This document shows, in pieces, positions 41,930-60,711 of a DNA stretch of 64,000 nucleotides. The notes beneath the pieces are model-generated. The model had not been told where the DNA came from, did not search any database, and worked only from the letters and a program-made list of their open reading frames with translations. Position 1 is the stretch's first letter. Every line of letters starts with the position of its first letter. Origin of the DNA: Shimia marina (GTDB lineage Bacteria; Pseudomonadota; Alphaproteobacteria; Rhodobacterales; Rhodobacteraceae); contig NZ_CYPW01000006.1 in assembly GCF_001458175.1 (NCBI RefSeq), positions 170,285-234,284 of the forward strand, written 5' to 3'. The translations under genes were made by a program, and so were the position numbers.

Positions 41930-41977
41930 TTGGCGACCCCGGCAGGATTCGAACCTGCAACCTGCCCCTTAGGAGGG
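41930..41977. repeat. Left attachment repeat (copy of tRNA-Arg 3' end)
   Basis: 48 bases identical to 60634-60681, running from the encoded CCA end into the anticodon arm. Bases beyond 41977 diverge from tRNA, so this is only the displaced fragment. Confidence 0.95.
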
Positions 41978-44725: not shown

Positions 44726-45628
44726 TCAATCTCCCAAAGTACGGAGTTGCAGATATTGGGTGAGATGTTGCCATATCCGCTCAGCGTGCTCGGGCTGGGT
44801 CTCACTGAGTCTCACAAGACGAATGATCAATGGTTGCGAAGGCAAGACATCGTCGATCCGCACCAACCGCCCTTGCGACAAGTGATCACCAATCAGGGAT
44901 TGCGGCAGCCAGGCAACGCCAATATCCTTTAGCACCAGTTGCAGCATCGCCAGTGTCAGGGCGGTTTCGGCGACTGTCGACACGGTGGTGTCCTTAGGCA
45001 GGCGTGGATTGATCATCCGGGCAAAGACCTGCCCTAGAAAGACCTCAGACGGGTAGCTGATTGTTGGAAGAACCGCTGCGTCGACCTTGTTGCGGACGTT
45101 CGGCGTTGCGACCGGGATCAACGTGTCTGTCCCAAGGATCACCGCCTCAAAGGCGTTACCGGATTCGGGTGTTTCATCTCCGGGAAGCGCATACATGATG
45201 GCAAAATCAACCTCCCTTGAGATCAGATGCATCAGACATTCATCTTGGTTACCCGACCGTACCCGTGTCGAAACTTGACCCTCTGCGCTCAACGCCAGAA
45301 CCACTTGCGGCGACACTGTGGTCGTCAGCGCGTGCTGACACACAAAACCCAGTGATTTCGCGGCCTGATCACTGGCGGTCTTCATGCTATGGCGCAACTT
45401 GTGAAGCCGCGCACTGAGATCGCGCAATTCGGGTTCAAGCGTCCGCACACCGGGCATCAGGGTGACCGGTTTTCGGCGGCGATCAAACAGTGTCGCACCA
45501 ATGCTGTCTTCTATGATCCGCACACGGCGGGTAAAGGCCGACTGCGTCAGCAGTCTCTTTTCTGCCGCGCGCGCCAATGAGCCGCCGTCAAGCACTGCCA
45601 AAATATCATCTATCCATTCAAGCCGCAT
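44726..45628 (-). CDS. LysR-family regulator of the sulfo-lyase operon
   Basis: 300 aa; the N-terminal winged helix contains [25 protein letters not shown], followed by a periplasmic-binding-like effector domain. It is divergent from the CuyA-like gene, whose start is 122 bases away, the normal arrangement for a LysR activator and its target. The AT-rich interval should hold its binding sites. Confidence 0.9.
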
Positions 45629-45750
45629 GGAATGCAGATAGAACGATCTGCATTAACTTACAATATTTGCAATTTATGAACCGAATTTCGCATTTGGAAC
45701 CATCTCATCATGAAGGTAAATTGAGCATAGGCAATATTAGGAGTCCCCAC

Positions 45751-46764
45751 ATGCATCTCGCCCGCTTTCCCCGCCTGCACCTTGCCCACCTGCCCACACC
45801 GCTTGAGCCAATGAAGCGGCTGTCCAAGGAGCTGGGTTGCGAAATCTGGATCAAGCGCGACGATTGCACCGGCATGTCCACCGGTGGCAACAAAACCCGC
45901 AAGCTGGAATTCCTGATGGCCGAGGCCGAGGCGCAAGGCGCCGATATGGTGATGACCCAGGGCGCCACCCAGACCAACCATGGCCGCCAGACGGCAGCTT
46001 TCGCGGCCAAGCTGGGATTTGATTGCCATATCCTGCTGGAAGACCGGACCGGGTATCAGGACGGAAACTACAACACCAATGGCAACGTCCTGCTGGATCA
46101 TCTGCATGGTGCCACGACCGAGAAGTTTCCCGGTGGTCACAACATGGTCGAAGAAATGGAAAAGGCCGCCGAGAAGAAGCGCGCCGAGGGGCGCAACGTC
46201 TATGTCATCCCCGGCGGCGGCTCGAACCCGACCGGGGCGCTCGGCTATGTTAATGCAGCGTTCGAGCTTCTATCCCAGGCCAATGACCGGGGTCTTCGGA
46301 TTGACCGACTTGTGCATGCAACCGGGTCGTCGGGGACGCAGGCTGGTTTGGTCACGGGCATGTGCGCGATGAATTCGCTGGTCCCGGTTCTGGGCATCGG
46401 CACGCGGGCTCCGCAACCCAAGCAGGAACAGATGGTCTATGATCTGGCCTGCAAAACCGCCGAAAAGCTGGGCTGCGCCGGTGTGGTCAAGCGCGAGGAC
46501 GTGATGGCCAACACCGATTACGTTGGTGAAGGTTATGGCCTGCCAACCGAAAGCGGAATCGAGGCGATCCGGATGTTTGCCGAGCTGGAAGGCATCCTTC
46601 TGGATCCGTGCTATTCGGCCAAGGGCGCGGCGGGCCTGATCGACCTCGCGCGCAAGGGCGAGTTCAAGGACCAGCGCGTGGTGTTCCTGCACACCGGTGG
46701 CGCGGCGGCCCTGAGCGGTTACGATTTTGCCTTTGACAATGCGAACCGCTGGGTGAACCTCTAA
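45751..46764 (+). CDS. cuyA: PLP-dependent lyase, L-cysteate sulfo-lyase / D-cysteine desulfhydrase type
   Basis: 337 aa, fold type II PLP enzyme. The PLP lysine is in [26 protein letters not shown] and [12 protein letters not shown] complete the active site; the length and start ([20 protein letters not shown]) are very close to CuyA of Ruegeria pomeroyi as I recall it. CuyA splits L-cysteate to pyruvate, ammonia and sulfite; relatives desulfhydrate D-cysteine. ATG at 45751 has AGGAG eight bases upstream. It is followed by a racemase and a RidA protein, which would interconvert stereoisomers and clear the 2-aminoacrylate intermediate. The exact substrate is inferred. Confidence 0.7.
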
Positions 46765-46767
46765 CTA

Positions 46768-47472
46768 ATGAGCCCACAGAGACCAATTGGCATTCTTGGC
46801 GGGATGGGGCCCGAGGCCACCATCCTGCTCCAGCGCAAGCTGCTGGCGGCCGTGCCGGCGCGCGACGACAGCGACCATATCCCTTTGCTGATCGACATGA
46901 ATCCGCAGGTACCATCGCGGATCGCGCATCTGATCGAGGGGACGGGCACGGATCCGGTGCCGACGCTTGCCGATATGGCTCGGCGGCTTGAGGCAGCTGG
47001 TGCCGTGGCGCTGGCAATGCCCTGCAACACCGCGCATCACTATGCCGACGCAATCACCGGGGCGGTCGATATCCCGCTTTTGAACATGGTCGAACTTGCG
47101 GCGGATCACGCGGCCGGGGCGCTCGGGTCGGGGGGACGTGTCGGCATGCTGGCGTCGCCCGCGGTGCGGCGCACGCAGCTTTACGAAAAGGCGCTGTCGG
47201 CGCGGGGGCTTTCTGTCATCTGGCCTTCCAAGTATGACCCCATGCTGGCCGCGGTCCGCACAATCAAGGCCGAAGGCCCGGGCGGCATGGCGCGTGACAC
47301 GCTTCTAGCGGCCTCGCAGGAGCTTGCCGCTGCCGGGGCGGGCCTGCAATTTGTTGCCTGTTCCGAGTTCTCGCTGATTGCCGACAGTGTGGCACCGGAT
47401 GCCAATGCCGTCGATACGGTCGATCTGTTGGTGCAGGCAATCATCGCAATAGCACGGTCGGATCGCGACTAG
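46768..47472 (+). CDS. Aspartate/glutamate racemase-family protein
   Basis: 234 aa, PLP-independent two-cysteine racemase. Has GILGGMGPEAT, the first catalytic cysteine in MPCNTAHHY and the second in VACSEFSLI. It begins three bases after the lyase stop. By context it could racemise cysteate, cysteine or a related amino acid to the isomer used by the lyase; family members usually act on Asp or Glu. Confidence 0.85.
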   Translation: MSPQRPIGILGGMGPEATILLQRKLLAAVPARDDSDHIPLLIDMNPQVPSRIAHLIEGTGTDPVPTLADMARRLEAAGAVALAMPCNTAHHYADAITGAVDIPLLNMVELAADHAAGALGSGGRVGMLASPAVRRTQLYEKALSARGLSVIWPSKYDPMLAAVRTIKAEGPGGMARDTLLAASQELAAAGAGLQFVACSEFSLIADSVAPDANAVDTVDLLVQAIIAIARSDRD

Positions 47473-47492
47473 ATTACCCCAAAGGACATCCC

Positions 47493-47840
47493 ATGACCCA
47501 GATTGAACGTATGCACAGCAACGGCCGGATGAGCCGGATCGTGATCCATGGTGACACCATCTATCTCTGCGGACAGGTTGGCAACGCCGATTCCAGTGTC
47601 GCAGATCAGACCCGCGAAACCCTTGCCAAGATCGAGGGTCTTCTGGCCGAGGCCGGCTCGGACAAGACCAGAATCCTGCAGGCAACGATCCGGCTGGCCT
47701 CGATGGACGATTTTGCTGAAATGAACGCGATTTGGGACGCTTGGGTGGTTCCCGGCACTGAACCCGCACGTGCCTGCGGCGAAGCCGAGTTGGCGCGGCC
47801 CGAACTCAAGGTCGAAATCATCATCACTGCCGCCCGTTAA
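47493..47840 (+). CDS. RidA-family imine/enamine deaminase
   Basis: 115 aa of the YjgF/YER057c/UK114 family. It has VIHGDTIYLCGQVG and the arginine region EPARACGEAELARPELKVEI that holds the active-site arginine. RidA proteins hydrolyse 2-aminoacrylate and similar imines; the upstream PLP lyase would release just that. Third gene of the operon. Confidence 0.88.
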   Translation: MTQIERMHSNGRMSRIVIHGDTIYLCGQVGNADSSVADQTRETLAKIEGLLAEAGSDKTRILQATIRLASMDDFAEMNAIWDAWVVPGTEPARACGEAELARPELKVEIIITAAR

Positions 47841-47868
47841 GGCATCAGCGCGCAAGAAACCCGTTCTG

Positions 47869-48753
47869 TTACAGAAGGTCCCACAGTTTGCGCGAGGTCG
47901 CGTCAAAGGCCTCGGGGTTCGATAGAGCAGATATCGTCAGTGTGGTGCACCATTTGTCGTCTCCAACCGGCACCAGCACCCCATTGACAAGCTCTGTCGA
48001 AATAGCGGTTTCGGGCATCCAGGCAAATCCACTGCCTTTCAACAGCCGTCGCTTGATTGTTTCCACCAACCCATCAACATAGATCGTTTCGGCATTTAAC
48101 GTCTGCCGTTCCACTGTGTTCTCAACCACCATCCCCAGGAACGACGACCTCTCGTAAGCCAGGTAAGGTATGGGTGGACCGTCCCAACTGCCCAGGTCCC
48201 ACCCATTGGCACGCGCAGGTTCGCTGGCGGCCACGGGAATCAGGCGGTCTGTCAGAATGTCCTTTCGGACAAAGTCGGCCTCGTTAATCATGGGCGAGAC
48301 CGAGTGGTGATAGTAGCACAGAAGGAAGTCCACCGCCCCTTCGACCAGAAGCTCGCAACAGGTGCTGAGAGAGTCGGACATGACACGGGTGCGCAATTCG
48401 GGGATTTGCTTCTGCAGCTTTTCTATGCGAGCCGCCAGAAAATTAACCGATATCGTGTGAAGCACGGAAAACCGGATAAAACGGCTGTCACCGCGATCCG
48501 CATCACGCAGCGACTGCCGGGATTCTGAAAGCTGCGAAATTGCCGCCCGAGCGACCGGCAGGAATTGTTCCCCAGCGTCGGTCAATTGCACCGGGTAGGT
48601 GGCGCGATTGACCAGGGGGAGACCTACCCAACTCTCCAAAGCTTTGATTCTTCTGCTAAATGCCGATTGCGTGATGTTGCGCTCATTGGAGGCGCGGGTG
48701 AAATTCAGTGTCCGGGCGAGGCATTCAAAGTCGCGAAGCCAATTCAAATCCAT
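47869..48753 (-). CDS. LysR-family regulator of the transporter operon
   Basis: 294 aa from the ATG at 48753 (MDLNWLRDFECLA), the conserved LysR start; longer readings add a non-homologous stretch. The wHTH contains TRASNERNITQSAFSRRIKALE. It is divergent from the ProX-like gene (273 bases between) and convergent with ridA. A second, distinct LysR serves the lyase operon. Confidence 0.9.
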   Translation of the reverse strand: MDLNWLRDFECLARTLNFTRASNERNITQSAFSRRIKALESWVGLPLVNRATYPVQLTDAGEQFLPVARAAISQLSESRQSLRDADRGDSRFIRFSVLHTISVNFLAARIEKLQKQIPELRTRVMSDSLSTCCELLVEGAVDFLLCYYHHSVSPMINEADFVRKDILTDRLIPVAASEPARANGWDLGSWDGPPIPYLAYERSSFLGMVVENTVERQTLNAETIYVDGLVETIKRRLLKGSGFAWMPETAISTELVNGVLVPVGDDKWCTTLTISALSNPEAFDATSRKLWDLL

Positions 48754-49025
48754 TCGGTGGGCCTGTCTGATTGATTGCGGCGTTTGGTGAGTGTAATCAA
48801 AATTATGCAAAAACAGAATAGTTTGATGAAATGTTCGAATTGGCCCTTTGAAAACCTCCTGATCTAGACCTCTGACAAGACTTCGCCGGGTTGATCGATC
48901 ACCGGTCTGCAACAGCAGGATAGGTTTGCTGCTTACACGGCTCGTCAGTGAGACGCGCGCGGAAGTCACAAGGAAGCGAAAGAATCGACGCCGGAACTCG
49001 GCGCATCTCAACAAAGGAGATTACC

Positions 49026-49991
49026 ATGAGAACCAAACTGAAATCCCTCGGTATGGCGACCGCAGTCGGCATCTTTGCGATGCCCGCGCTCGCGGCTGAA
49101 GAGGTCAAAATCGGCGTGCCGTCCTGGACCGGCGCACAAGCCATCGCCCACCTTCTTGGGGCCGTAGTCGAAATGCGCATCGGCGGTAAGGTTGAATATG
49201 TGCCGGGCAACAACGCCACGATTTTCCAGGCGATGGACCAGGGCAAGGGCGACATCGACGTACACCCCGATGTCTGGCTGCCCAACCAGGAGAGCTTTAC
49301 CAAGAAATACGTTGACGGTGCCGGCACCGTGACTCTGTCGTCCAACCCTTATGAAGGTAACCAGGGATTTTGCGTCAGTCAGGATTTCGGCAACAAGATG
49401 AACATCACCGATATCGCCGATCTGGGTCGCCCGGATGTTGCTGCGCTGATGGACAGCGATGGCAATGGCAAGGGCGAGATGTGGATCGGCGCGCCGGGCT
49501 GGGCCTCGGCCAACGTGAACGAGGTTAAAATCCGCGACTATGGCCTTTTGGATTTCATCGATCCGATCCGCGCCGAGGAAAGCGTCAAGACCGCACGCAT
49601 CAAGGACAGCATCGCCAAGGGCGAAGGCTATGCGTTCTACTGCTACAAACCGCACGCGGTTTGGTACATGTTCGACGTCAAAATGTTGACCGAGCCGACT
49701 TTCGATCCGGCCAAATACGTGATGGTGCAGCCGTCGGATGACCCCGATTGGTACAACAAATCCAGTGTTGCCACCAAGGACGCGCTGAAGAACGTGCAGA
49801 TTGCATGGTCGAACTCGCTTGAAGGCCGCTCGCCTGCGATTGCGGAATTCTTTGCCAACTTCGCGCTGACAGCCGACGACGTTTCGGGTTTTGCTTACGA
49901 AATCAGCGGCAAAGGCCGGGATCCGGCAGAAGTTGCCCGTGAATGGGTAGAAGCCAACCCCGACCGCGTTGACGCCTGGCTGGGCCTGTGA
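49026..49991 (+). CDS. ProX-like periplasmic binding protein
   Basis: 321 aa, signal peptide to about residue 23 (ALAAEE). OpuAC-type fold with aromatic residues likely to line the pocket (VPSWTGAQ, GAPGWAS, KPHAVWYMF). ATG at 49026 has AAAGGAG seven bases upstream. It belongs to the glycine-betaine/proline class, but in this island the ligand may be another zwitterion. The lyase-racemase neighbours suggest an amino-acid-like compound. Confidence 0.88.
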   Translation: MRTKLKSLGMATAVGIFAMPALAAEEVKIGVPSWTGAQAIAHLLGAVVEMRIGGKVEYVPGNNATIFQAMDQGKGDIDVHPDVWLPNQESFTKKYVDGAGTVTLSSNPYEGNQGFCVSQDFGNKMNITDIADLGRPDVAALMDSDGNGKGEMWIGAPGWASANVNEVKIRDYGLLDFIDPIRAEESVKTARIKDSIAKGEGYAFYCYKPHAVWYMFDVKMLTEPTFDPAKYVMVQPSDDPDWYNKSSVATKDALKNVQIAWSNSLEGRSPAIAEFFANFALTADDVSGFAYEISGKGRDPAEVAREWVEANPDRVDAWLGL

Positions 49992-50009
49992 TCCGGCCCC
50001 AAAAACCTT

Positions 50010-50037
50010 GCCGACACCGGTGACATTCGGTGTCGGC
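50010..50037 (+). terminator. Strong hairpin between binding-protein and ATPase genes
   Basis: GCCGACACCG/CGGTGTCGGC, a perfect 10-bp stem with an 8-base loop, 19 bases after the stop and without a T run. It probably protects the binding-protein message or attenuates downstream expression, giving excess binding protein. Confidence 0.55.
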
Positions 50038-50080
50038 CTCTTCCCCCCTCCTTTCCTTCTCAAGCTTTGGGATGCCTCGC

Positions 50081-51145
50081 ATGAGCCCTGAACCCGCAGA
50101 TACCGTCGTGGAAATCTCGAACGTCTGGAAGATTTTCGGTGCGAACCCGCAAGCCGCTCTTCAGGCGATCCGGGACCGGGGCCTTAGCAAGGCCGAGGTC
50201 CTGGCCGAAATGGGCGCCGTGGTTGGCGTTGCCGATGTCAGCCTGTCGGTGAAGCGCGGCGAAATCTTTTGCATCATGGGGCTGTCGGGCAGTGGTAAAT
50301 CCACGCTGGTGCGTCATTTCAACCGCCTGTTGGAACCCACGGCCGGCAAGATCGAAATCGAAGGCACCGACGTGATGGCGCTGGATCCGAAGGCGCTCCA
50401 GGCGTTCCGCAATCGCAAGATCGGTATGGTGTTCCAGAACTTTGCCCTGATGCCGCACCGTTCCGTATTGGACAATGTGGCGATGCCGCTGGAAATCCGC
50501 CAGGTCGCCAAGAACGAGCGCATGCGTCAGGCCGCCGCCATCCTTGATATCGTCGAGCTGGGCGCCTGGGGGTCAAAATTCGCCCATGAATTGTCCGGCG
50601 GCATGCAACAACGTGTCGGCCTGGCACGCGCCCTGGCCGCGAACCCCGATGTCCTGTTGATGGACGAGCCGTTTTCGGCGCTTGACCCTCTGATCCGGCG
50701 CCAGTTGCAGGACGAGTTCATCCGCCTGTCCAAGATCCTGAAAAAGACCACGATCTTCATCACCCATGATCTGGATGAAGCGGTCCGCATTGGCGACCGG
50801 ATCGCGATCATGCGCGATGGCAAGATGGTACAGATTGGCACCGCAGAGGATATCGTCATGCATCCCGCGGATGACTATGTGGCCGATTTCGTCGCCGGGA
50901 TTTCACGGCTCAAGGTCGTGCACGCCCACGCGGTGATGCAACCGCTTAGCCAGTATACCGCCGCCAACGGACCGGTTCCCAGTGATGTGCCCCGCGTCGA
51001 CGAAAGCGAAACCTTGAGCAACCTGATCAACATGGCAATTGACGACGAAAAACCCATCCTCGTGCAGGATGGCGGCAAGGACGTGGGCATCATCACCCGC
51101 GCCGACCTGCTGCGCACCGTGATCGAAGGGACCGAAGTATCATGA
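50081..51145 (+). CDS. ProV-like ABC transporter ATPase
   Basis: About 354 aa. Walker A GLSGSGKST, Q-loop VFQNFALMPHR, signature ELSGGMQQRVGLA, Walker B LLMDEPFSALD, H-loop ITHD. A C-terminal CBS-like regulatory segment (residues about 255-350) is present, as in ProV/OpuAA. ATG at 50081 is favoured; an ATG at 50072 is also possible. Overlaps the permease start by four bases. Confidence 0.92.
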   Translation: MSPEPADTVVEISNVWKIFGANPQAALQAIRDRGLSKAEVLAEMGAVVGVADVSLSVKRGEIFCIMGLSGSGKSTLVRHFNRLLEPTAGKIEIEGTDVMALDPKALQAFRNRKIGMVFQNFALMPHRSVLDNVAMPLEIRQVAKNERMRQAAAILDIVELGAWGSKFAHELSGGMQQRVGLARALAANPDVLLMDEPFSALDPLIRRQLQDEFIRLSKILKKTTIFITHDLDEAVRIGDRIAIMRDGKMVQIGTAEDIVMHPADDYVADFVAGISRLKVVHAHAVMQPLSQYTAANGPVPSDVPRVDESETLSNLINMAIDDEKPILVQDGGKDVGIITRADLLRTVIEGTEVS

Positions 51146-52692
51146 GCAATCTTGACGATCTTGGCGTCAACCCGCTTGAAGACACCGAAAGCGAAGCTGC
51201 CTTGGCCTATGCCAAGGAACGCCGTGACAACATTCGCACCTTCGTGCGCACCAGCCCGGATTACTACATCCGGAATTTTGACAAGATCGGTGCCTCGTCG
51301 CGGTTCACACCGACCTTCAACCTGATGGCCGGGATTTTCGGCCCGGTCTGGTTCGGGGCCCGTGGGTTATGGTCATGGGCGCTGCCATTTCTGATCCTTG
51401 AAACCCTGGGCTTTGTGCAAATCGCGCGCGGTCTGTTCGGCGACCTGGCCGCGGACGCCATGCAGCGCATCGCGTCGATTGAAGGGACGCTGGAACTGCG
51501 TCGCAAACAACTTGCTGCGGCAATTGAGAGCGAGTCGGACAAGATTGATGTCTACCGAAGAACCGTCGAATCCCTTGAACAAAACATCGGTGGCATCCGC
51601 GCCGAGGCCGATGCGCTTGCCGCCCAGAGCCCCACGATCGTAATGACCGGGATCGTGATCCTGTTGCTGGTCAAGGCCGTGCAATCCATCGTCGCCAACT
51701 GGGCGCTCGAGGCGCGGTTTTCCGAATGGCTGTCGGATCGTTCGATCCGCTCGGCAATGCCGAGCACTCATATCGTGTTCAGCGCGGTTTTCATGTTGCT
51801 GATCGTCACCGCCGCAATGTTGCATTACAGCTTTCCGGGCCGGTTTTCCCTGCTCAGCCACTTTCCCACCGACCCGGACATTCGTCTGACCAGCATCCAG
51901 GGGGTCGAAGACTTCATCGCCTGGTGTGTGCGCAACAGCGAGGCGTTTTTCGACGGGCTGACCTTTGGGATTCGCGCGTTACTCGATGCACTCGAGGTCA
52001 TCCTAGTCCACACGCCCTGGATCGTCATTGCCAGCCTGATCGTGCTTCTGACATGGCTCACCGCAGGCATTCGCACCGCCATCTATTCCGGCGCCTTTCT
52101 GGCCTATATGGGGCTCCTGGGCTTCTGGGAGGGCGCGATGACCACGCTGGCCCTTTTGGGCACAGCGGCCTGTCTGTCCATCGTCATTGGCATCCCGCTC
52201 GGTATGTTCGCCGCACGCCGGCCACGGTTTTATGCCTTCATCCAACCGATCATGGATTTCATGCAGACCATGCCGGCCTTTGTCTTCATGGTGCCGGTTA
52301 TCGCGTTTTTCGGTGTCGGCAAACCGGCGGCGGTTGTAGTCACCATGATCTTTGGTGGCACTCCGGTTGTGCGCCTTACCGTGCTGGGCCTGCGTGGTGT
52401 CCCCGAAAGCGTACGTGAGGCGGCAATCAGCTTTGGTGCCAACAAATGGTATCTGCTGACCAAGGTCGACTTGCCACTTGCAAGCCCGTCGATCCGCGCC
52501 GGGATCAACCAGACCATCATGCTGTCATTGGCCATGGTGGTGGTGGCCTCGCTGATCGGGGCTAAGGGACTCGGCGAAGACGTTCTGGAAGCGCTGCAAT
52601 ATGCCAATGTCGGACAGGGTATCCTTGCCGGGTTCTCGATCCTGTTCTGTGCCATGATCCTTGATCGTATTGTGCAGGGCGGACGCAAATGA
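51142..52692 (+). CDS. ProW-like permease with long N-terminal extension
   Basis: 516 aa. The C-terminal part (from about residue 280) is an OpuAB/ProW permease with DFMQTMPAFVFMVPVIAFFG and the EAA loop REAAISFGANKWYLLTKVDLP. The first 260 residues are unusual: a segment resembling DUF2628 (FNLMAGIFGPVWFGARGLW), a coiled-coil-like stretch at about 105-160 and further membrane helices near 170 and 210. Ordinary ProW is about 280-350 aa. The extension could bind a membrane partner or sense osmotic state; this is inference. Confidence 0.87.
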   Translation: MSNLDDLGVNPLEDTESEAALAYAKERRDNIRTFVRTSPDYYIRNFDKIGASSRFTPTFNLMAGIFGPVWFGARGLWSWALPFLILETLGFVQIARGLFGDLAADAMQRIASIEGTLELRRKQLAAAIESESDKIDVYRRTVESLEQNIGGIRAEADALAAQSPTIVMTGIVILLLVKAVQSIVANWALEARFSEWLSDRSIRSAMPSTHIVFSAVFMLLIVTAAMLHYSFPGRFSLLSHFPTDPDIRLTSIQGVEDFIAWCVRNSEAFFDGLTFGIRALLDALEVILVHTPWIVIASLIVLLTWLTAGIRTAIYSGAFLAYMGLLGFWEGAMTTLALLGTAACLSIVIGIPLGMFAARRPRFYAFIQPIMDFMQTMPAFVFMVPVIAFFGVGKPAAVVVTMIFGGTPVVRLTVLGLRGVPESVREAAISFGANKWYLLTKVDLPLASPSIRAGINQTIMLSLAMVVVASLIGAKGLGEDVLEALQYANVGQGILAGFSILFCAMILDRIVQGGRK

Positions 52693-53408
52693 CGCCGGTC
52701 GTTTTTGTTCACGGCTTTATGGGTGGAAGTCGGCAATGGCAGGGGCAGGCCGATTCCGCGGCTGGGTACGAGGTCATCAGCCTGGATTTGCCGGGATTTG
52801 GGGAAAATGCTCATTGCGATGCTCTGGACAGTATTGCCGGCTATGCTGAATGGTCCCTGGACGAACTGAGTACGCGCGGTGTCGAGCGGTTCAACCTGAT
52901 CGGCCATTCGATGGGCGGGATGGTCGTGCAAGAGATGGTCGCGCGCGCGCCGGAAAGAATCTTGCGACTGGTGCTCTATGGCACCGGTGCAACAGGAATC
53001 CTACCGGGCAGGTTTGAGACCATCTGCACCTCCAAACGCCGCGCTCTTGCAGACGGGCCGCAGGCCACAGCCAGACGGATCGCAGCGACCTGGTTTCTTG
53101 AGCGGGAAAATGCTGCTGGCTATGAGGGCTGCGCAGCTATCGCCGAACAATGCAGTCTGCCGACCATGCTAAATGGCCTCGATGCGATGGAGAACTGGAG
53201 TGGCGTCGAGCGTCTAGAGAACATTGGGACCAGAACATTGGTGATCTGGGGTGACCATGATCGCACCTACCCATGGTGCCAGACCGAGCAATTGTGGCAA
53301 TCCATTCCCAACGCCAACCTTTTGGTGATGCCGGAATGTGCCCATGCTGCACACTTGGAAAAGCCGTGGCTATTCAACAGTGTACTAAAGGACTTTTTTT
53401 CGATCTGA
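52689..53408 (+). CDS. Alpha/beta hydrolase
   Basis: 239 aa with the oxyanion region FVHGFMGGSRQW, nucleophile elbow GHSMGGM, acid in WGDHDRTY and histidine in CAHAAHLEKP. Start overlaps the permease stop (ATGA), so it is co-translated with the transporter and may cleave an ester or amide of the imported compound. No signal peptide. Confidence 0.88.
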   Translation: MTPVVFVHGFMGGSRQWQGQADSAAGYEVISLDLPGFGENAHCDALDSIAGYAEWSLDELSTRGVERFNLIGHSMGGMVVQEMVARAPERILRLVLYGTGATGILPGRFETICTSKRRALADGPQATARRIAATWFLERENAAGYEGCAAIAEQCSLPTMLNGLDAMENWSGVERLENIGTRTLVIWGDHDRTYPWCQTEQLWQSIPNANLLVMPECAHAAHLEKPWLFNSVLKDFFSI

Positions 53409-53529
53409 CGCAGTGTCGATGCGGGCGCTATGCTTAACAAGCCGTCATTGGCGCAGTCGAAGCGAAGGTCGGGAAAGTCCGCATTGCCGACCTTGATGTG
53501 GCGTGCGGCGAAGGTCCGCTGAGCGGATA

Positions 53530-55060
53530 TTTTGTTGAAAAACTCCTCCTTGATTGCGGCCTGAACTGCTGATTCAATTCCCTTATTGATTGGGGGATTT
53601 CGCAATGTTGGGACCGAGACAAGAAGCACAGGCAGCCTTGTTCTACGAGTTCTCGCTTGAAAATCATGTTCCGCAAGATCACCTTCTGCGCTCGATTGAT
53701 CGATTTGTTGATCTGAGCAGCATTCGCGCGCATCTGGCGGATTTCTACAGCCACACGGGCCGTCCTTCCGTTGATCCTGAGTTACTGATCCGGATGCTTC
53801 TGGTGGGCTATTGCTTTGGGATACGGTCGGAGCGGCGACTCTGCGAAGAGGTGCATCTGAACCTCGCCTATCGGTGGTTTTGTCGGCTCGATCTAAACGA
53901 CCGCATTCCGGATCACTCCACCTTCTCCAAGAACCGGCATGGGCGCTTTCGGGAGAGTGAGTTACTGCGGCATTTGTTTGAAACGACTGTCGCCCGCTGT
54001 ATTGAGGAAGGACTTGCCAGCGGGCAGCGCATGGCCGTTGACGCCAGCCTGATTGAAGCGGATGCCAACAAACAAAACTCAACACCGAAGGAAGAATGGG
54101 ATGCGTCGACCGTCGATCCTGTCGACGCGCCTCGCGCAGTTCGAGAATATCTCGAGACACTGGATGAGGCGGCGTTCGGCGCAGCGAGCGAGGTTCAGCC
54201 CAAGTTCACCCCGCATTCCGATCCGGCCAGTCAGTGGACTGCGGCCCGCAAAGGGCCTGCTTTCTTTAGCTATTCTGACAATTACCTGATCGACACGGAT
54301 CATGGTGTCATTTTGGACGTGGAACCCACCCGATCCATCCGGCAAGCGGAGGTTGGTTCAACAAAAACCATGCTGTTGCGGGTGAAAGACAAGTTCGACC
54401 TGGTCCCCGACTGGATGATCGCTGATACCGCCTATGGCTCGGGCCCGATGCTCGGCTGGCTTGTGGGTCGCAAGATCGATCCTTACATCCCGGTGATCGA
54501 CAAGGCCGGACGCCCTGACGGCAGCTGGACACGCGCAGACTTCGAATGGGACGCTGAGATTGATCAATATATCTGCCCCAAGGGTCATGCACTCAAACAG
54601 TTTCGCCGGAATTACTCCGATCCGAACCGAGGCCCAACGGGCAAAGGCCGCGCGAAGTATCGTGCTCAGAAACTGACCTGCCAGGCTTGCCCATCCAAAC
54701 ACAAGTGCTGCCCCAACGCCGACGCCAGGTCTATCACCCGTGAAGAACACGAAGATGCCCGCCAAGTTGCCAGGGATTTGGCCAAAACTGATGATTATGT
54801 GATTGCAATGAAGCGCCGAAAGAAGGTCGAAATACTCTTCGCCCATCTGAAACGCATTCTCGGCCTCAGTCGGCTCCGATTACGCGGACCATGTGGCGCA
54901 AATGACGAATTTCTCCTCGCCGCAACCGCCCAAAATCTCCGAAAACTAGCCAAAATCATTCCTGCACCGCAGCAACCCGCCAAATCCTGATAACAAAGCC
55001 GCTTGCGCTCAGTTCAGCGCACCACTTTCTGCGCTAGCAACACGTTGTTTTTCAACAGAA
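53530..55060 (+). mobile_element. IS1182-family insertion sequence
   Basis: Transposase flanked by imperfect inverted repeats: TTTTGTTGAAAAAC at 53530-53543 and, inverted, GTTTTTCAACAGAA at 55047-55060 (13 of 14 positions matching). Exact outer ends and target duplication could not be settled by eye. It separates the hydrolase from the cyclodeaminase-type gene within the island. Confidence 0.8.
53605..54990 (+). CDS. IS1182-family transposase
   Basis: 461 aa, apparently intact. N-terminal DUF772-type region (HTGRPSVDPELLIRMLLVGY), DDE residues in MAVDASLIEAD, IADTAYGSG and KKVEILFAHLKR, and a cysteine cluster LTCQACPSKHKCC in the C-terminal half. ATG at 53605 follows a GGGGG stretch. Confidence 0.93.
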   Translation: MLGPRQEAQAALFYEFSLENHVPQDHLLRSIDRFVDLSSIRAHLADFYSHTGRPSVDPELLIRMLLVGYCFGIRSERRLCEEVHLNLAYRWFCRLDLNDRIPDHSTFSKNRHGRFRESELLRHLFETTVARCIEEGLASGQRMAVDASLIEADANKQNSTPKEEWDASTVDPVDAPRAVREYLETLDEAAFGAASEVQPKFTPHSDPASQWTAARKGPAFFSYSDNYLIDTDHGVILDVEPTRSIRQAEVGSTKTMLLRVKDKFDLVPDWMIADTAYGSGPMLGWLVGRKIDPYIPVIDKAGRPDGSWTRADFEWDAEIDQYICPKGHALKQFRRNYSDPNRGPTGKGRAKYRAQKLTCQACPSKHKCCPNADARSITREEHEDARQVARDLAKTDDYVIAMKRRKKVEILFAHLKRILGLSRLRLRGPCGANDEFLLAATAQNLRKLAKIIPAPQQPAKS

Positions 55061-55245
55061 TCCAGACAAAGCGACACTTCGCTGCAACTGTGCCAATGGC
55101 CGCTATCGGAAATCAGCAATGGTCAAAAACGGTCGTTATCGCCGCCGACAGAAATGGTTGGGTTTTGTCACATTCTGCGGTGGGAAAAGGTCCCGGTATG
55201 AGCCCAAAGTTCATGCTTCTGCGCGATGAACAAGCGTCGGCCCCT

Positions 55246-56190
55246 TTATCTTGAGAGAGCGAGCTTGTGCCAGAACCCGTTCACTGCGGTCAAATCTTGA
55301 ACTCCCAACCCTGATAGGCACGCCACCGTCGTGTTTGCTTGGCTATTTGTCTCGCCTCCAATCAGACAGCCTATTTCCCCAAGATCGGCCTTACTGATCA
55401 AACCTTTTGCAAGGGCACGGCTGGGTGCGCCGTATTTGACCGCAGACTCAATTGCATCAACATAAACATCGGCGTTTGTCAGGATGGCCGGATCAATTTC
55501 ACACTTCGTTGTGTCGTCAGAGCCAACTGAAGTTATGTGTTGCCCGCGTGTAACCCATTCTGCTTGGATCAACGGTTCTTTTGCGCCGGTCGCTGTTACA
55601 ACGACATCCGATTGTTCGACAGCGGAAGGCAGGTCTCCGGTTTTGAGGATTTCGACATTCGGAAAAGCTTGCCGGAGGTCCCGCACGAGCCCCTCGACGG
55701 CGACATCTGAACGGCCCCAGATATTCAAGAATTTGATCGGACGGACCATCATAAGTGCTTCGGCTTGCAAACGCGCCTGCGTTCCTGAGCCAACAATCAG
55801 TGCGGAGGCCGCATCTTCGGGCGCAAATAACTTCGCAACCAAAGCTCCGGCAGCAGCGGTTCGGTAGTCTGAGATCAAATGATCGTCTTGCAAGATCGCG
55901 AGAGGCTTGCAGGTGTCACTATCGAAGACAGCAATTAGTCCGCTCGACGCTGCTTCGCCCCGATCTGCCAGAACTTGTGACCATCCAGCCATCTTCACTG
56001 TGAATATGGGACAGTCCGGCAAAGTAGCGGACTTCACGTGGATATCAGCCAGATCGTTGGGGTGCAGCACATAGACCGGCGCTTGGGCAGTGCCGCCGGA
56101 TATTGCGCGGAAGGCCGCGTCCGCTGTGGGGATCAAGCTTTCGATATCCAGATATGGCCGGATCGCTTCTGGGCCGAAGAAGGGGATCAT
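55246..56190 (-). CDS. Ornithine cyclodeaminase/mu-crystallin-family protein
   Basis: 314 aa NAD(P)-binding protein. Has VKMAGWSQ (substrate lysine region), DDHLISDYRTAAAGALVA and the Rossmann motif LIVGSGTQARLQAEAL, then VVVTATGAKEPL and GSDDTTKCEID. Relatives include ornithine cyclodeaminase, ketimine reductases and EutC of ectoine breakdown, so imine reduction of a catabolic intermediate is equally possible. ATG overlaps the stop of the PhzF frame. Confidence 0.85.
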   Translation of the reverse strand: MIPFFGPEAIRPYLDIESLIPTADAAFRAISGGTAQAPVYVLHPNDLADIHVKSATLPDCPIFTVKMAGWSQVLADRGEAASSGLIAVFDSDTCKPLAILQDDHLISDYRTAAAGALVAKLFAPEDAASALIVGSGTQARLQAEALMMVRPIKFLNIWGRSDVAVEGLVRDLRQAFPNVEILKTGDLPSAVEQSDVVVTATGAKEPLIQAEWVTRGQHITSVGSDDTTKCEIDPAILTNADVYVDAIESAVKYGAPSRALAKGLISKADLGEIGCLIGGETNSQANTTVACLSGLGVQDLTAVNGFWHKLALSR

Positions 56191-57049
56191 GGAGCGATGA
56201 CCTGGCCTTTGCCCACAAACGCAACCTCGCCAGCGACGGTGACCCGCTCGATGTCGTCCTGCGCTCCAAAGGGGGTTACGATGATCTCACTGGGCCTTCC
56301 CATGAAGTGCCCTTGTTTCAGCACAAAGGCCTCGCCCGGTTTCACAAGTCCGTGTTTTAACGCGTATGCGCCGACGACGCCTGCGGCGCTTCCGGTGGCC
56401 ACATCTTCCATTATCCCGTCATTGTTCCAATGCCGCCCCTCAAATGAGTTGATATCGAAGAGATAGGCGAATTCGGCACCGATGCTTTTCAGCCGATCCT
56501 CGAGGTCCGGCACCGTGATGCGCGCTTCAGCCAAGCCGCCATCAACCGGGACAACGAGATATTTCAAACCAGTGGAAATGACCTCCATGGGGGGGAAGCC
56601 AATGCGTCCAGATTGAAGGCATGGGCAAAATCAGCTTTTGCATCTACGACGCTCAGCATCTCAGGACGCCCTTGGTCCAATGTGCCCAAGTAGCGACCCT
56701 TGCGGTATTCGGTGGTGATTTCCACATACCGTCCACCGTGCAGGTTAAGTGTCCAAACGCGCTTGATCTCACTACCTGCTTGACGGTGCAGCGTACACGC
56801 CGCTCCGATAAGGGGGTGACCGGCGAATGGAAGTTCTTCGAAAAGATCGAAGACCCGCGCAGTTATCTGACCAGTACTTTCCGACAGAAAGATCGACTCA
56901 AAATGGCGAAGCTCCTGCGTCACGGTCAGCATCTGCTCGCCACTCATCCCGTCGCTATCTGTGAAAACAGCGAGGCTGTTGCCAGCGTAGGGCTTGGTCG
57001 CAAAAACATCACAATGGGTGAAGTTGAAGGTTTGATTTAAGGGTGTCAT
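56187..57049 (-). pseudogene. PhzF-family isomerase split by a frameshift at a C7 tract
   Basis: Two overlapping frames make up one PhzF-like protein. The first (57049 down to 56564) has ELRHFESIFLSES with the likely catalytic Glu and FEELPFAGHPLIGAA. The second (56588 down to 56187) continues with LKYLVVPVDG and the DVATGSAAG motif. The break lies at seven C on the minus strand (56595-56589); one more C, or two fewer, would restore a single 287-residue frame through SPPMEVIS. It may be phase variation, a recent mutation or an assembly error. Confidence 0.82.
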
Positions 57050-57602: not shown

Positions 57603-59159
57603 TCAAAGCGAATGTCCGGCGCTGCGGTGGCTATCTCTCGCGTCTAACTCTCTTTCAGTCGCTTCTCGGCGTCTTTCGCTAGTTTCCAGCTGGTCTCTAA
57701 CTCCGCTTGCAGCGTCGCGTAATTCTGCTCCTCGCGCAGCAAGTCGGCCAATGTGGTGACGGACGTGAGATGTGATTTCATCAATAGCGCCACGCAATGC
57801 GCCAAGCCATTCACCTTGCTTTCGATCCTGCTGGTCGAGCGTTTCTCCAAGGCGTGCAATTCCTTGGCTGAGCTCTCGCAGGCCGTCACCAACCGTTCGA
57901 CGGATGCGAGCAATTCGCGTTCCAATGCTGTCAGGGACTGTGTCATCTAGGGTTCCTTGATCTCGATACAGATGACCGGCGTCCCGGCCATGGTGCAGGT
58001 CTTCAATTCGGTCCGGTCGGGGTCCAGCGTCACCCATGTCTGCCCAGCCTGTTCGATCCGTGTCAGGCCAAGCCTCGTCATCTCCGAGCGCGTGATCAAG
58101 CCCGTCCAAAACCAACTCGCGATCAGCACTGTCGCGATCCAGGATGAGACCATCACCACGATCACCCAGGGTGAGATCGTCAACCAGCGCCTGATCGTCT
58201 CGCTCCGCCTCTCCAACTCGCTCCTGCTGTCGCTCAGAAAGAACCTGATATCGGTCTCGATTGTATGCAGCGCGCTGGTCGCAATGCTGCTGAAGTCGCT
58301 CCTGAAGCTCTCCAGTTGAGATGCCATCAAGGCGGCGTGGTCGCTGCGTACTGTCTCCAGGTCCGCGTTCAATTTCTCGGCGAGGCGGTTCGGCTTGCCA
58401 GTCGTCATGGAAAATCTCTCCTTTCAAACGCCAGCGCTCGCCGGTGTCGGGGTCTTTGGCTGTGATGTAATTCTTGCTGGCACGGGGGATATCAAAGCCT
58501 GCATCGGCCAAAGCATCGATCATGCTGGCGCGGTCGGTGATGGTGCCGACGCTGATCTGATCGAGGATCCAATCGTGCAGCGCTTCGCGACCTTGCGCGC
58601 GCGTCGGCGCTTCAGTCGTCGCCCTCACTTCGCGAGCGTGATCTGGCTCCAAAGGGTCTGCCCAACCGTGCGTCTTGTTCATCAAATCACGCAGGCTGGA
58701 AAAGGCGTTTTCATGGCCTGGCGGTGCGATGTTCAACGCTTTGCCCGTGCTCAGCTCAAGGCGTGGCGTGCAAAAGTGCAGCTCGACATTGCCTTCATGC
58801 GAGTGGCGCACCCAGAGACAATCGTATTGATCCCTGTCCAGCCCAGCAAAGGCCAGAGCCTCAAATAGCTCAATGGCCTCTTGCTGGGCGGCGGGACTGG
58901 GATCGTCGCTGTCGGCAAAGCTGATCACACCTGCCGTGTAGCTCCATTTGTTGGAGCTCGCATCAATAAGGTCGCGGGTCTGATCGGGATTGCCGTGCAG
59001 CACCTCGGGCAGCGGGTCGCGGATCTTGGTTTGCGGCTGGCCGTTGTCATCACGGATCAGATTGCGGTTCTCGTCATAGGCCAGAACTTCGCGCGCGGTC
59101 AGGTAGTCGATGGGGGCTGCACCGCCTCCCGTACCGGTGGAGAAGAACGACATGATCAT
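57603..59159 (-). CDS. mobA: Mobilization relaxase, MbeA/ColE1-like
   Basis: 518 aa relaxase that would nick oriT and pilot the DNA. Likely catalytic tyrosine in PIDYLTA (Tyr19). The metal/active-site box is RHSHEGNVELHF: His119, Glu126 and His128 have the same spacing (H-x6-E-x-N/H) as the HEN motif of ColE1 MbeA, with His in place of Asn. The C-terminal 230 residues are rich in R, D, G and Q, as expected where a second frame is also under selection: mobB and mobD are coded entirely inside it. ATG overlaps the mobC stop. Confidence 0.85.
   Translation of the reverse strand: MIMSFFSTGTGGGAAPIDYLTAREVLAYDENRNLIRDDNGQPQTKIRDPLPEVLHGNPDQTRDLIDASSNKWSYTAGVISFADSDDPSPAAQQEAIELFEALAFAGLDRDQYDCLWVRHSHEGNVELHFCTPRLELSTGKALNIAPPGHENAFSSLRDLMNKTHGWADPLEPDHAREVRATTEAPTRAQGREALHDWILDQISVGTITDRASMIDALADAGFDIPRASKNYITAKDPDTGERWRLKGEIFHDDWQAEPPRREIERGPGDSTQRPRRLDGISTGELQERLQQHCDQRAAYNRDRYQVLSERQQERVGEAERDDQALVDDLTLGDRGDGLILDRDSADRELVLDGLDHALGDDEAWPDTDRTGWADMGDAGPRPDRIEDLHHGRDAGHLYRDQGTLDDTVPDSIGTRIARIRRTVGDGLRELSQGIARLGETLDQQDRKQGEWLGALRGAIDEITSHVRHHIGRLAARGAELRDAASGVRDQLETSERRREATERELDARDSHRSAGHSL
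57644..57946 (-). CDS. mobD: MobD/MbeD-like mobilization protein nested in mobA
   Basis: 100 aa in the alternative frame within mobA, starting with ATG directly after the mobB stop (TAGATG) and with AAGGA seven bases upstream. The sequence MTQSLTALERELLASVERL resembles MbeD N-termini, and the whole protein is predicted helical/coiled. In ColE1, MbeD sits inside mbeA and acts in mobilization and entry exclusion. Identity rests on position, frame and helical pattern. Confidence 0.68.
   Translation of the reverse strand: MTQSLTALERELLASVERLVTACESSAKELHALEKRSTSRIESKVNGLAHCVALLMKSHLTSVTTLADLLREEQNYATLQAELETSWKLAKDAEKRLKES
57947..58408 (-). CDS. mobB: MobB/MbeB-like membrane mobilization protein nested in mobA
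   Basis: 153 aa in the same alternative frame as mobD. AAAGGAG (58424-58418) lies nine bases before its ATG, strong evidence of translation inside mobA. Helical N-terminal 75 residues, then a membrane segment WLTISPWVIVVMVSSW and beyond (about 90-115), then a short beta-like tail with TWVTLDP. This matches the plan of MobB/MbeB proteins that anchor the relaxosome to the membrane. Confidence 0.72.
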   Translation of the reverse strand: MTTGKPNRLAEKLNADLETVRSDHAALMASQLESFRSDFSSIATSALHTIETDIRFFLSDSRSELERRSETIRRWLTISPWVIVVMVSSWIATVLIASWFWTGLITRSEMTRLGLTRIEQAGQTWVTLDPDRTELKTCTMAGTPVICIEIKEP

Positions 59160-59626
59160 TCGCCAACGTCCGTGTGTGCCGCCACGATCTGCGCCAATTG
59201 TCGCTCGATGGCCACAAGCTGCGTCGCGACCTTGAGCGCATCCACCTGGCTCGCGCGGCCGGATTTGACCGCGCCGTTGATCCAGCGGGAGAGCTGATTG
59301 AGGTTGCCGCCGACGCGGGCAATCGCAAAGGTCAGCTGCGTGTCAACTCGGGGGACGGGCTTGCGCCGACGCGCCTCGGTCAGCCCCAATGCCTCGCGCA
59401 TCAGCGTTGCATTGGGCAGGCCAGCGGCGCGCGCCTTGGCCACAAGCGTGGCCTTTTCCGACGGGGTGCATCGAAAGATCACGCTCTCGGAAAGGCCCTC
59501 TTTGACGCCGCTTGCGTGCGTTTGGTTGGGGTTTGAAGGGGAGGCTGGCCGCCCCTCACAAGTCCCGCCGATGTAATCGGTGGGTAACCTTGCTCTCTGC
59601 TCTTTGTGGAGACCGATCGCACTCAT
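59156..59626 (-). CDS. mobC: MobC relaxosome accessory protein
   Basis: 156 aa. A ribbon-helix-helix-like section (ESVIFRCTPSEKATLVAKA) and the family motif RVGGNLNQLSRWINGA are present. MobC helps open DNA at oriT for the relaxase. It overlaps the Rep-like stop upstream and the mobA start downstream by four bases each, giving the ColE1 order mobC-mobA. Confidence 0.88.
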   Translation of the reverse strand: MSAIGLHKEQRARLPTDYIGGTCEGRPASPSNPNQTHASGVKEGLSESVIFRCTPSEKATLVAKARAAGLPNATLMREALGLTEARRRKPVPRVDTQLTFAIARVGGNLNQLSRWINGAVKSGRASQVDALKVATQLVAIERQLAQIVAAHTDVGE

Positions 59627-60480
59627 GCGCTAAGCCCCGCCGCTTCGATTTCAGCTGAGCTGACTAGGTTCGCGGCTAGCAAAGCGGTCACTTGGCCGGG
59701 TGTTATGTGGCGGCAAAGGGGGTGCTTGTCCGTGACCCAATCGGCCAAACCTTTCAGCAATTCAGCCTCTTTGGCTTTGCCTGCTTCTCGCGCCTCCTCA
59801 ACCTCCTGAAGGTATTTGAACCAACGGCCAGACGTGAACCAATTGTCGGAGAAGCAAACCCTGGAGCGGGTGAAGCCTTCGCTTTCGGTCGCATAGGTCC
59901 GCACGGCTTCCTCGAGGTCTTTAGCATCCACACCATCGGCCAACGCGTGGCGGATTTGTGAGAGGTAAACCGCCTTGCCGCGAATGCGATCTTCGGGATA
60001 GGCGGACAAAATCTTTTCTGAAATCTCATCCTCCACCGCCGCCTTCGCGTGCGAAGGATTTGGTTTTTGATATGGTTTATATCTGTTCTTATAGGATTTG
60101 CCCTCTGGGGCAGATGGCTTGCCCTCAGGGGCAAATGCATCATTTTCCCTTTCGGTCGGATCCATTTGCCCATTTGGGCAAATGGAGTTTCCCAAGGCAT
60201 ACCAGCAGGTCCGATCATAACGATCATCGCTGAAATTGCCCTTGATGATCAGCTCCGCGCTGACCAGCTTTTCGAGCGCTGTGCGGATCTGCTTCTCGCT
60301 CAGATAGGGGAACAACTCGCCAAAGGCCGAGATCGAATTGTAGGTCCAATACCGCCCGTCTCGAAGGTTGCGGCGGTTGGCTTGGTTCTTCTCGATCCAG
60401 AGGGTGATGTTCTGGAAAATCACCGCCGCGTTCAGGCCAACACGTCCCGCGATTTCGGGATCAAAGCTATGGCGGCTCAT
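59623..60480 (-). CDS. Replication-protein-like winged-helix protein
   Basis: 285 aa from ATG 60480 (MSRHSFDPEIA). N-terminal part AAVIFQNITLWIEKNQANRRN and the winged-helix region YLSEKQIRTALEKLVSAELIIKGNF are typical of plasmid/phage replication and DnaD-like proteins. The C-terminal half has a second helical domain (DNWFTSGRWFKYLQEV). Operonic with mobC, so the excised circle may replicate or regulate its mobilization. Confidence 0.72.
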   Translation of the reverse strand: MSRHSFDPEIAGRVGLNAAVIFQNITLWIEKNQANRRNLRDGRYWTYNSISAFGELFPYLSEKQIRTALEKLVSAELIIKGNFSDDRYDRTCWYALGNSICPNGQMDPTERENDAFAPEGKPSAPEGKSYKNRYKPYQKPNPSHAKAAVEDEISEKILSAYPEDRIRGKAVYLSQIRHALADGVDAKDLEEAVRTYATESEGFTRSRVCFSDNWFTSGRWFKYLQEVEEAREAGKAKEAELLKGLADWVTDKHPLCRHITPGQVTALLAANLVSSAEIEAAGLSA

Positions 60481-60514
60481 GATTGGCCCCCAAATACGCA
60501 CAAACGTGCGAATT

Positions 60515-60562
60515 TTGTACAGGTTTTGTACGAGAAATCGGCCGTTTCAGTCGATTACGGCC
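60515..60562. repeat. Right-end TTGTAC repeats and inverted repeat; candidate arm sites or oriT/oriV
   Basis: TTGTAC at 60515 and 60526 (11 bp apart) mirror the pair at the left end. Next to them are CGCAC-AAAC-GTGCG (60497-60510) and GGCCGT/ACGGCC (60540-60545, 60557-60562). This 150-bp non-coding stretch between rep and att is the only free space for an origin in the module. Confidence 0.5.
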
Positions 60563-60633
60563 CGAAAGCTGACGGGACTTTTTGCAGTCTTCCGCACAAC
60601 GTCCTGTAAATAAGCCATATTTTTCAGGTGTTT

Positions 60634-60681
60634 TTGGCGACCCCGGCAGGATTCGAACCTGCAACCTGCCCCTTAGGAGGG
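60634..60681. repeat. Right attachment repeat inside tRNA-Arg
   Basis: 48 bases identical to 41930-41977; covers the tRNA 3' half from the anticodon arm to CCA. Confidence 0.95.
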
Positions 60682-60711
60682 GGCTGCTCTATCCAGTTGA
60701 GCCACGGAGCC
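60635..60711 (-). tRNA. tRNA-Arg (anticodon CCT)
   Basis: 77 nt with encoded CCA. Acceptor GGCTCCG pairs with CGGGGTC (one G-T and one T-G pair), D-arm GCTC/GAGC, anticodon loop CTCCTAA, and T-arm GCAGG-TTCGAAT-CCTGC. Reads AGG codons. Intact because the element restored its 3' end on integration. Confidence 0.97.

Follow-up and report, generated by a model that had tools for sequence, protein, structure and literature searches.

Does the relaxase gene of a chromosomal locus in Shimia marina hold two further genes, as that of ColE1 does, and which of the overlapping frames is kept by selection? We examined the 64,000-nt stretch of DNA in which this locus lies (hereafter the window), for which an initial annotation had proposed such a layout, and found the coordinates and gene arrangement as it had described them (Table 1). 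The operon runs orf285, mobC, mobA on the minus strand with ATGA overlaps at both joints, orf285/mobC and mobC/mobA, and the two nested ORFs, B and D, lie wholly within mobA and share a single +1-shifted frame. The claimed AAAGGAG site was present, ending 9 nt 5′ of the B start, as was the TAG-ATG junction at which the ATG of D begins on the base after the B stop; AAGGA ends 7 nt 5′ of the D start. No match was found for orf285 in Pfam or NCBIfam, and a homologue of it lies upstream of the module in 51 of 69 relatives.

Table 1. Features of the mobilization module and of the element that carries it, by position in the window.
Feature	Position	Strand	Description	Profile matches
Second attachment repeat, other element end	41930–41977		identical 48-bp copy	
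Tyrosine-recombinase integrase	41992–43086	−	adjoins second attachment repeat	Pfam Phage_integrase 2.1e-10
mobA	57603–59159	−	518 aa; relaxase, MbeA (MOBP5/HEN) type; nuclease part ~1–250, dual-coded tail from ~251	
mobD (D), MbeD-like	57644–57946	−	100 aa; inside mobA in the mobB frame, ATG directly 3′ of the mobB stop	
mobB (B), MbeB-like	57947–58408	−	153 aa; nested in mobA, +1 frame	
mobB ribosome-binding site	58418–58427	−	TTGAAAGGAG; doubles as mobA codons Leu-Lys-Gly	
mobC	59156–59626	−	156 aa; nicking accessory protein, NikA/MobC type	Pfam NikA-like 1.3e-10 and MobC 4.8e-7, both above cut-off
orf285	59623–60480	−	285 aa; first operon gene, ATGA overlap with mobC	
Conserved non-coding leader, tRNA end to operon	60481–60634	−	candidate promoter and/or oriT	
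Attachment repeat	60634–60681		48 bp; covers 3′ part of tRNA-Arg(CCT), 60635–60711	

An open frame says little here on whether B and D are genes. When MobA was held fixed and its codons were randomly recoded with synonyms, B stayed open in 1.2% of trials and D in 22% for the window, and in 14% and 20% on average over 66 relatives. Openness as proof of nested genes was dropped as too weak, and the case was instead rested on conservation among relatives. All of the 89 loci fetched (L001–L089) match MobA, and a non-redundant set of 69 mobA genes, each 480 codons or longer, was kept after setting aside 8 exact duplicates, 7 loci with fewer than 480 open codons (L017, L018, L032, L074, L079, L084, L089) and 5 in which the start at residue 1 was missing or the gene ran past the locus end (L013, L072, L075, L086, L087). 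L019 and L024 were also omitted from the profiles, the recoding, the 30-pair substitution counts and the tail/nuclease comparison, and L004 from the recoding, the 30-pair counts and the tail comparison, being placed in the outside group for the B/D profile search.

The D ORF was found in every relative (69 of 69), as was B (69 of 69, with a stop in two). The B start lies 751 nt into mobA in 67 relatives, the exceptions being L004 (730 nt) and L024 (697 nt). For the remaining alternative frame, 10 of the 89 loci had listed ORFs of at least 60 aa, and every one of these ended before B. Codon choice at the B ribosome-binding site was likewise distinctive: the Gly codon is GGA in 67 of 68 relatives, against 4.3% in the first 240 codons, and the Lys codon is AAA in 63 of 66, against 36%; L024 lacks the Leu-Lys-Gly motif. 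On this codon usage, the putative ribosome-binding site of B is written into the Lys-Gly codons of mobA.

Codon substitutions among mobA homologues, which the initial annotation had proposed as a check, point to constraint in both frames. Across 30 disjoint pairs of relatives, 709 of 3460 four-fold sites of mobA differed before the overlap (20.5%), compared with 56 of 2078 in B (2.7%) and 32 of 1515 in D (2.1%); four-fold sites of the nested frame differed at 195 of 1859 in B and 106 of 1281 in D. Change per site at mobA codon positions 1, 2 and 3 (477 pairs of 85–95% identity) was 0.048, 0.028 and 0.212 before the overlap, 0.112, 0.062 and 0.040 in B, and 0.097, 0.028 and 0.029 in D. The most-changing codon position therefore switches in the overlap, the nested-frame wobble leading in pairs above 55% identity, and the contrast fades with distance (0.443, 0.456 and 0.496 in B for 668 pairs below 55%). 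The nested ORFs might in principle be by-products of a GC-rich relaxase tail and not genes, a reading in keeping with the average of 14% and 20% of recodings that leave B and D open and with the absence of a curated family match for either. Against it stand the drop in change at mobA four-fold sites, roughly eight- to tenfold within the overlap, the lead of the nested wobble position, the ribosome-binding-site codons of B and the homology to annotated MbeB described below, and we give it almost no credence.

If B and D are genes, the MobA tail might be a passenger frame, kept open but hardly needed. Over the same 30 pairs, B and D differed at 7.5% and 5.2% of amino acids and the MobA tail over them at 12.2% and 10.2%, about twice the 6.4% of the MobA nuclease part, which is roughly equal to B and D. 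The MobA model has a mean pLDDT of 51.3 and a pTM of 0.33, with residues 303–413 below 50; the modelled tail thus appears low-confidence and partly disordered, in line with the low-complexity C-terminus that the initial annotation had expected under dual coding. Profiles of the tail gave 3.4% against enterobacterial tails, although B does resemble its enterobacterial counterpart. A passenger tail would fit all of these observations, as well as the stops opposite residues 304 (L017) and 357 (L032) that leave B and D uninterrupted.

Other results argue that the tail is needed. With B and D fixed, it stayed open in 0.13% of random recodings on average. Changes at nested four-fold sites were commoner where silent in MobA (24 of 423) than where conservative (154 of 4071) or radical (76 of 3656), and none of 739 possible MobA stops had arisen, a count given lowered weight since truncated genes had been excluded beforehand. 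The tail profile also gave 94.6% against those of Paracoccus/Yoonia plasmids, and between two gamma/alpha plasmid groups a lengthwise tail match was seen (99.3%); the tails of L100 (Rippkaea), L091 and L103 were outside this comparison. We consider a mere passenger rather improbable, and the substitution data indicate that the MobA tail is also kept by selection, more loosely than the nested frame.

Either frame can break alone. MobA is interrupted while B and D run on uninterrupted in L017, L018, L032 and L079 (stops opposite residues 304, 243, 357 and 92), and in L072 a break ahead of the overlap divides MobA between two frames, B and D being intact; the stop opposite residue 507 in L087 may be where the gene normally ends. 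Interruption of the nested frames by stops had been named at the outset as evidence against the genes. Such a stop was found in B, with MobA open, in two of the 69 relatives, opposite residue 81 in L019 and opposite residue 125 in L024, and the rest had no stop in B.

The similarity of MobA to MbeA over the nuclease part places it, by profile comparison, among relaxases of the MbeA / MOBP5(HEN) type. NCBIfam relax_MbeA_E1 matched residues 1–355 with an E-value of 9.4e-43 (147 bits, below the model cut-off of 500), and Pfam Relaxase matched at 4.3e-5 (24.2 bits, just short of its 24.6 cut-off). The functional residues of MbeA-type relaxases are a His-Glu-Asn triad and a catalytic Tyr. Among the relatives, Y19, H119 and H128 are kept in 69 of 69 and E126 in 68 of 69, and Y19, H119 and E126 align with the Tyr, His and Glu of the colicin E1 plasmid relaxase. 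The third motif position is His in all 69, in the Zymomonas and Rippkaea relaxases and in that of Paracoccus plasmid pMARC2, whereas the colicin E1 plasmid relaxase has Asn; the window MobA also has roughly 20 extra residues near its N terminus, and the two are 32.4% identical over 254 residues (colicin E1 plasmid L094).

B is predicted to be built of a long N-terminal helix that makes up most of the model, a hydrophobic helix and a small C-terminal beta part (helices 8–76 and 80–112, four strands; mean pLDDT 72.7, pTM 0.26). The MbeB-like membrane helix ascribed to it was found as a hydrophobic helix at about residues 82–100 (hydropathy 2.19 over 19 residues from residue 82). Profile searches with the nested proteins, another of the proposed checks, were negative with the public models and positive with our own. 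Pfam MbeB_N gave no match to window B, nor MbeD_MobD to window D, at E-values up to 1, and NCBIfam likewise gave no MbeB or MbeD match. When ten nested plasmid proteins were tried against Pfam, MbeB_N matched B of L094 (3.6e-22) and missed B of L098, L100, L102 and L104 (Zymomonas, Rippkaea, Halomonas and Yoonia plasmids), so the public MbeB model is narrow. MbeD_MobD matched D of L094 (1.9e-35) and of Zymomonas (1.8e-13), gave 0.0068 for Halomonas D (below the cut-off) and had no match to D of Yoonia or pAES4.

A profile made from the nested proteins of other MbeA-type plasmids gave 1.9e-13 for B and a weaker 7.5e-5 for D. The search space was 66 relatives and their reversals (132 sequences), in which the best reversed decoys scored 0.0051 (B) and 0.003 (D). 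At E < 0.01 the D search returned 66 of 66 relatives. In hhalign comparisons B gave 99.0% over 141 columns and D gave 89.1% over 30 columns (reversed control 0.4%). Against enterobacterial plasmids alone the values were 89.7% for B and 48.5% over 19 columns for D, and against a wider plasmid set 97.8% and 28.6%. The Neisseria and Enterobacter D proteins were absent from the D comparison sets, and the Polaromonas and Acinetobacter D ORFs, which are without the motif, were omitted from the D profile.

The nested pair could have arisen independently and be like MbeB and MbeD in position and in coiled-coil or membrane character only. The lack of a curated match and the 12% identity in the hhalign alignment would agree with this, and scores can be inflated by coiled coils and membrane helices, reversed sequences having reached E < 0.01 in 1 of 66 cases for B and 3 of 66 for D. 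The B alignment, however, runs through the helix, the membrane segment and the C-terminal beta part (reversed control 5.8%), an ORF in the same place and frame recurs in 23 of 23 loci (below), and Paracoccus/Yoonia proteins serve as intermediates (98.0% for B, 90.9% for D); independent origin is in our judgement highly improbable. With full-length homology, matching place and frame, and one hydrophobic helix, sequence comparison strongly supports B as a homologue of MbeB. D, placed after mobB in the same frame, has moderate support as a homologue of MbeD, through the intermediates and one 30-residue motif, so that the proposed identities were borne out with less certainty for D.

The ColE1 arrangement mbeC-mbeA(mbeB, mbeD), as in colicin plasmids L092 and L094, has the same order, +1 frame and nested positions as the window, and the match to ColE1 claimed for the locus was recovered in L094, in which the MbeB start lies 688 nt inside the relaxase gene, again in the +1 frame, with MbeD next. 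The likeness extends to the ribosome-binding site within Lys-Gly codons, the hydrophobic helix in B, the LExxLL start of D, and the places of Tyr19, His and Glu. The window differs in carrying the module on a chromosomal element where ColE1 is a plasmid, and in nested proteins that go unmatched by the curated MbeB_N and MbeD models.

The arrangement had been described as known from enterobacterial plasmids, and it is not confined to them: MOBP5(HEN) modules with overlapping mobA, mobB and mobC are reported for Paracoccus plasmids pMARC2 and pAES4 in PMC3832669. Both are small plasmids, 36.1% and 45.7% identical to the window over the matched parts, whose records list both nested ORFs as hypothetical proteins. 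The closest copies in the plasmid collection were those of Ruegeria conchae NZ_CP081104 (58.5%) and Neotabrizicola shimadae NZ_CP069374 (52.4%), in which the nested ORFs start 751 nt into mobA, as in the window; unlike the window, both are plasmid records, large or linear. For NZ_CP081104 the gene table has the relaxase only, and for NZ_CP069374 the nested genes only. The same held for all 23 plasmid records so compared (L002–L004, L090–L109), where the table, known to be incomplete, has an entry for the relaxase or for one or more nested genes, but in no case for the two together.

Each of the 23 loci compared had a B-like +1 ORF at the corresponding position (in L099 cut by the record end); these loci comprise 20 plasmid stretches hand-chosen from hit lists (L090–L109), two further plasmids and the window. 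Their hosts are Rhodobacterales, Zymomonas, Polaromonas, Neisseria, Enterobacterales, Aeromonas, Halomonas, Acinetobacter and the cyanobacterium Rippkaea, and thus span Alpha-, Beta- and Gammaproteobacteria and one cyanobacterium. More distant relaxases were sampled by taking 18 of 26 loci together with plasmid L099, 14 of which were counted as distant. A +1-frame ORF with a B-family match was found in 6 of these 14 (L119, L120, L128, L130, L132, L133; in L119 and L132 at about 1e-4 only) and in none of the other eight (L116, L118, L129, L131, L134, L135, L137, L138). On the present sample, nested B may not be universal among relaxase loci. Within the family, MobA was matched at 1e-20 in 54 of 394 genomes sampled, the window's own included. 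No title or abstract on Rhodobacterales islands of this kind was found in literature searches of open-licence PMC papers.

The initial annotation had also placed the module on an integrated element in a Rhodobacteraceae-type genome, and we found both an integrase and a 48-bp repeat in tRNA-Arg. As this repeat recurs beside the integrase, the element measures about 18.7 kb, with the mobilization genes at the tRNA-Arg end and the integrase at the opposite end. The coupling-protein family PF02534, on which alone the search for a transfer channel relied, had four matches in the host genome (one a fragment) and none on the window's contig. An integrase, attachment repeats and a relaxase without a transfer channel of its own mark an integrative mobilizable element, and with PF02534 standing for the channel the element classes as one. 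A tRNA scan covering 46 of 55 loci found tRNA-Arg(CCT) about 1.5 kb before mobA in 27, tRNA-Pro(CGG) in 3, tRNA-Ser(GCT) farther off in 3 and none in 13. Two genomes hold two module copies each (L056/L057 and L039/L059), one copy near tRNA-Arg(CCT) and the other with no tRNA in the stretch. The cargo of the island (44726–57049) has a look of amino-acid metabolism, with a LysR regulator, a PLP enzyme, an Asp/Glu racemase, an ABC ATPase and an ornithine cyclodeaminase, besides a transposase at 53590–54990. A PhzF-like gene at 56187–57049 is split over two overlapping ORFs (C- and N-terminal parts) and looks frameshifted.

The leader between the tRNA and the operon is common to 31 of the 33 sequences for which this stretch could be taken, window included, and is the leading candidate for promoter and oriT. 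Within it TTTTGTAC is repeated at 11 bp spacing, and by eye a CGCAC-GTTT-GTGCG inverted repeat can be made out, a candidate oriT or regulator site. Two other oriT candidates were rejected: ColE1 nic-like words gave no convincing match, and TGGCTTA, a word in the leader, has 3 occurrences across the window and is not constant among relatives. Of the Paracoccus oriT sequence given in PMC3832669, the 3′ half was not found in the window at up to 3 mismatches.

Together, these results make it very probable that the locus is a ColE1-type mobilization module on an integrative mobilizable element, in which the Mob proteins would have the following roles. MobC as accessory protein and MobA as relaxase, through Tyr19, would nick one strand at an oriT and pilot it, a helper element supplying the transfer channel. 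MobB would be made by internal initiation from the ribosome-binding site within mobA, as a membrane-anchored coiled-coil protein that helps in presenting the relaxosome to the membrane or the channel. MobD, a predicted small helical protein, would be translated either from a site of its own or through re-initiation at TAG-ATG, and may aid transfer or keep out similar elements. The functions given for MbeB and MbeD come from work on ColE1, and plasmid records carry the annotation 'MbeD family mobilization/exclusion protein'.

Islands with a broken relaxase frame keep MobB and MobD uninterrupted, and the pair might therefore serve the resident islands. One could suppose from this that the nested pair is the older and more strongly kept frame, retainable alone, that it excludes or hampers competing elements, and that the relaxase tail has grown over it; we think this unlikely. 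As a mobilization module, the locus is a largely expected relative of the known ColE1 system in a chromosomal setting, with Paracoccus relatives already in print (PMC3832669). Such modules are easily missed or misread, because curated models miss the nested genes and gene tables list either the relaxase or nested genes, never both. Overprinting of the ColE1 kind, which the substitution data indicate is kept by selection in both frames, is found in Proteobacteria and on a cyanobacterial plasmid, and in marine Rhodobacterales it is carried by chromosomal islands.
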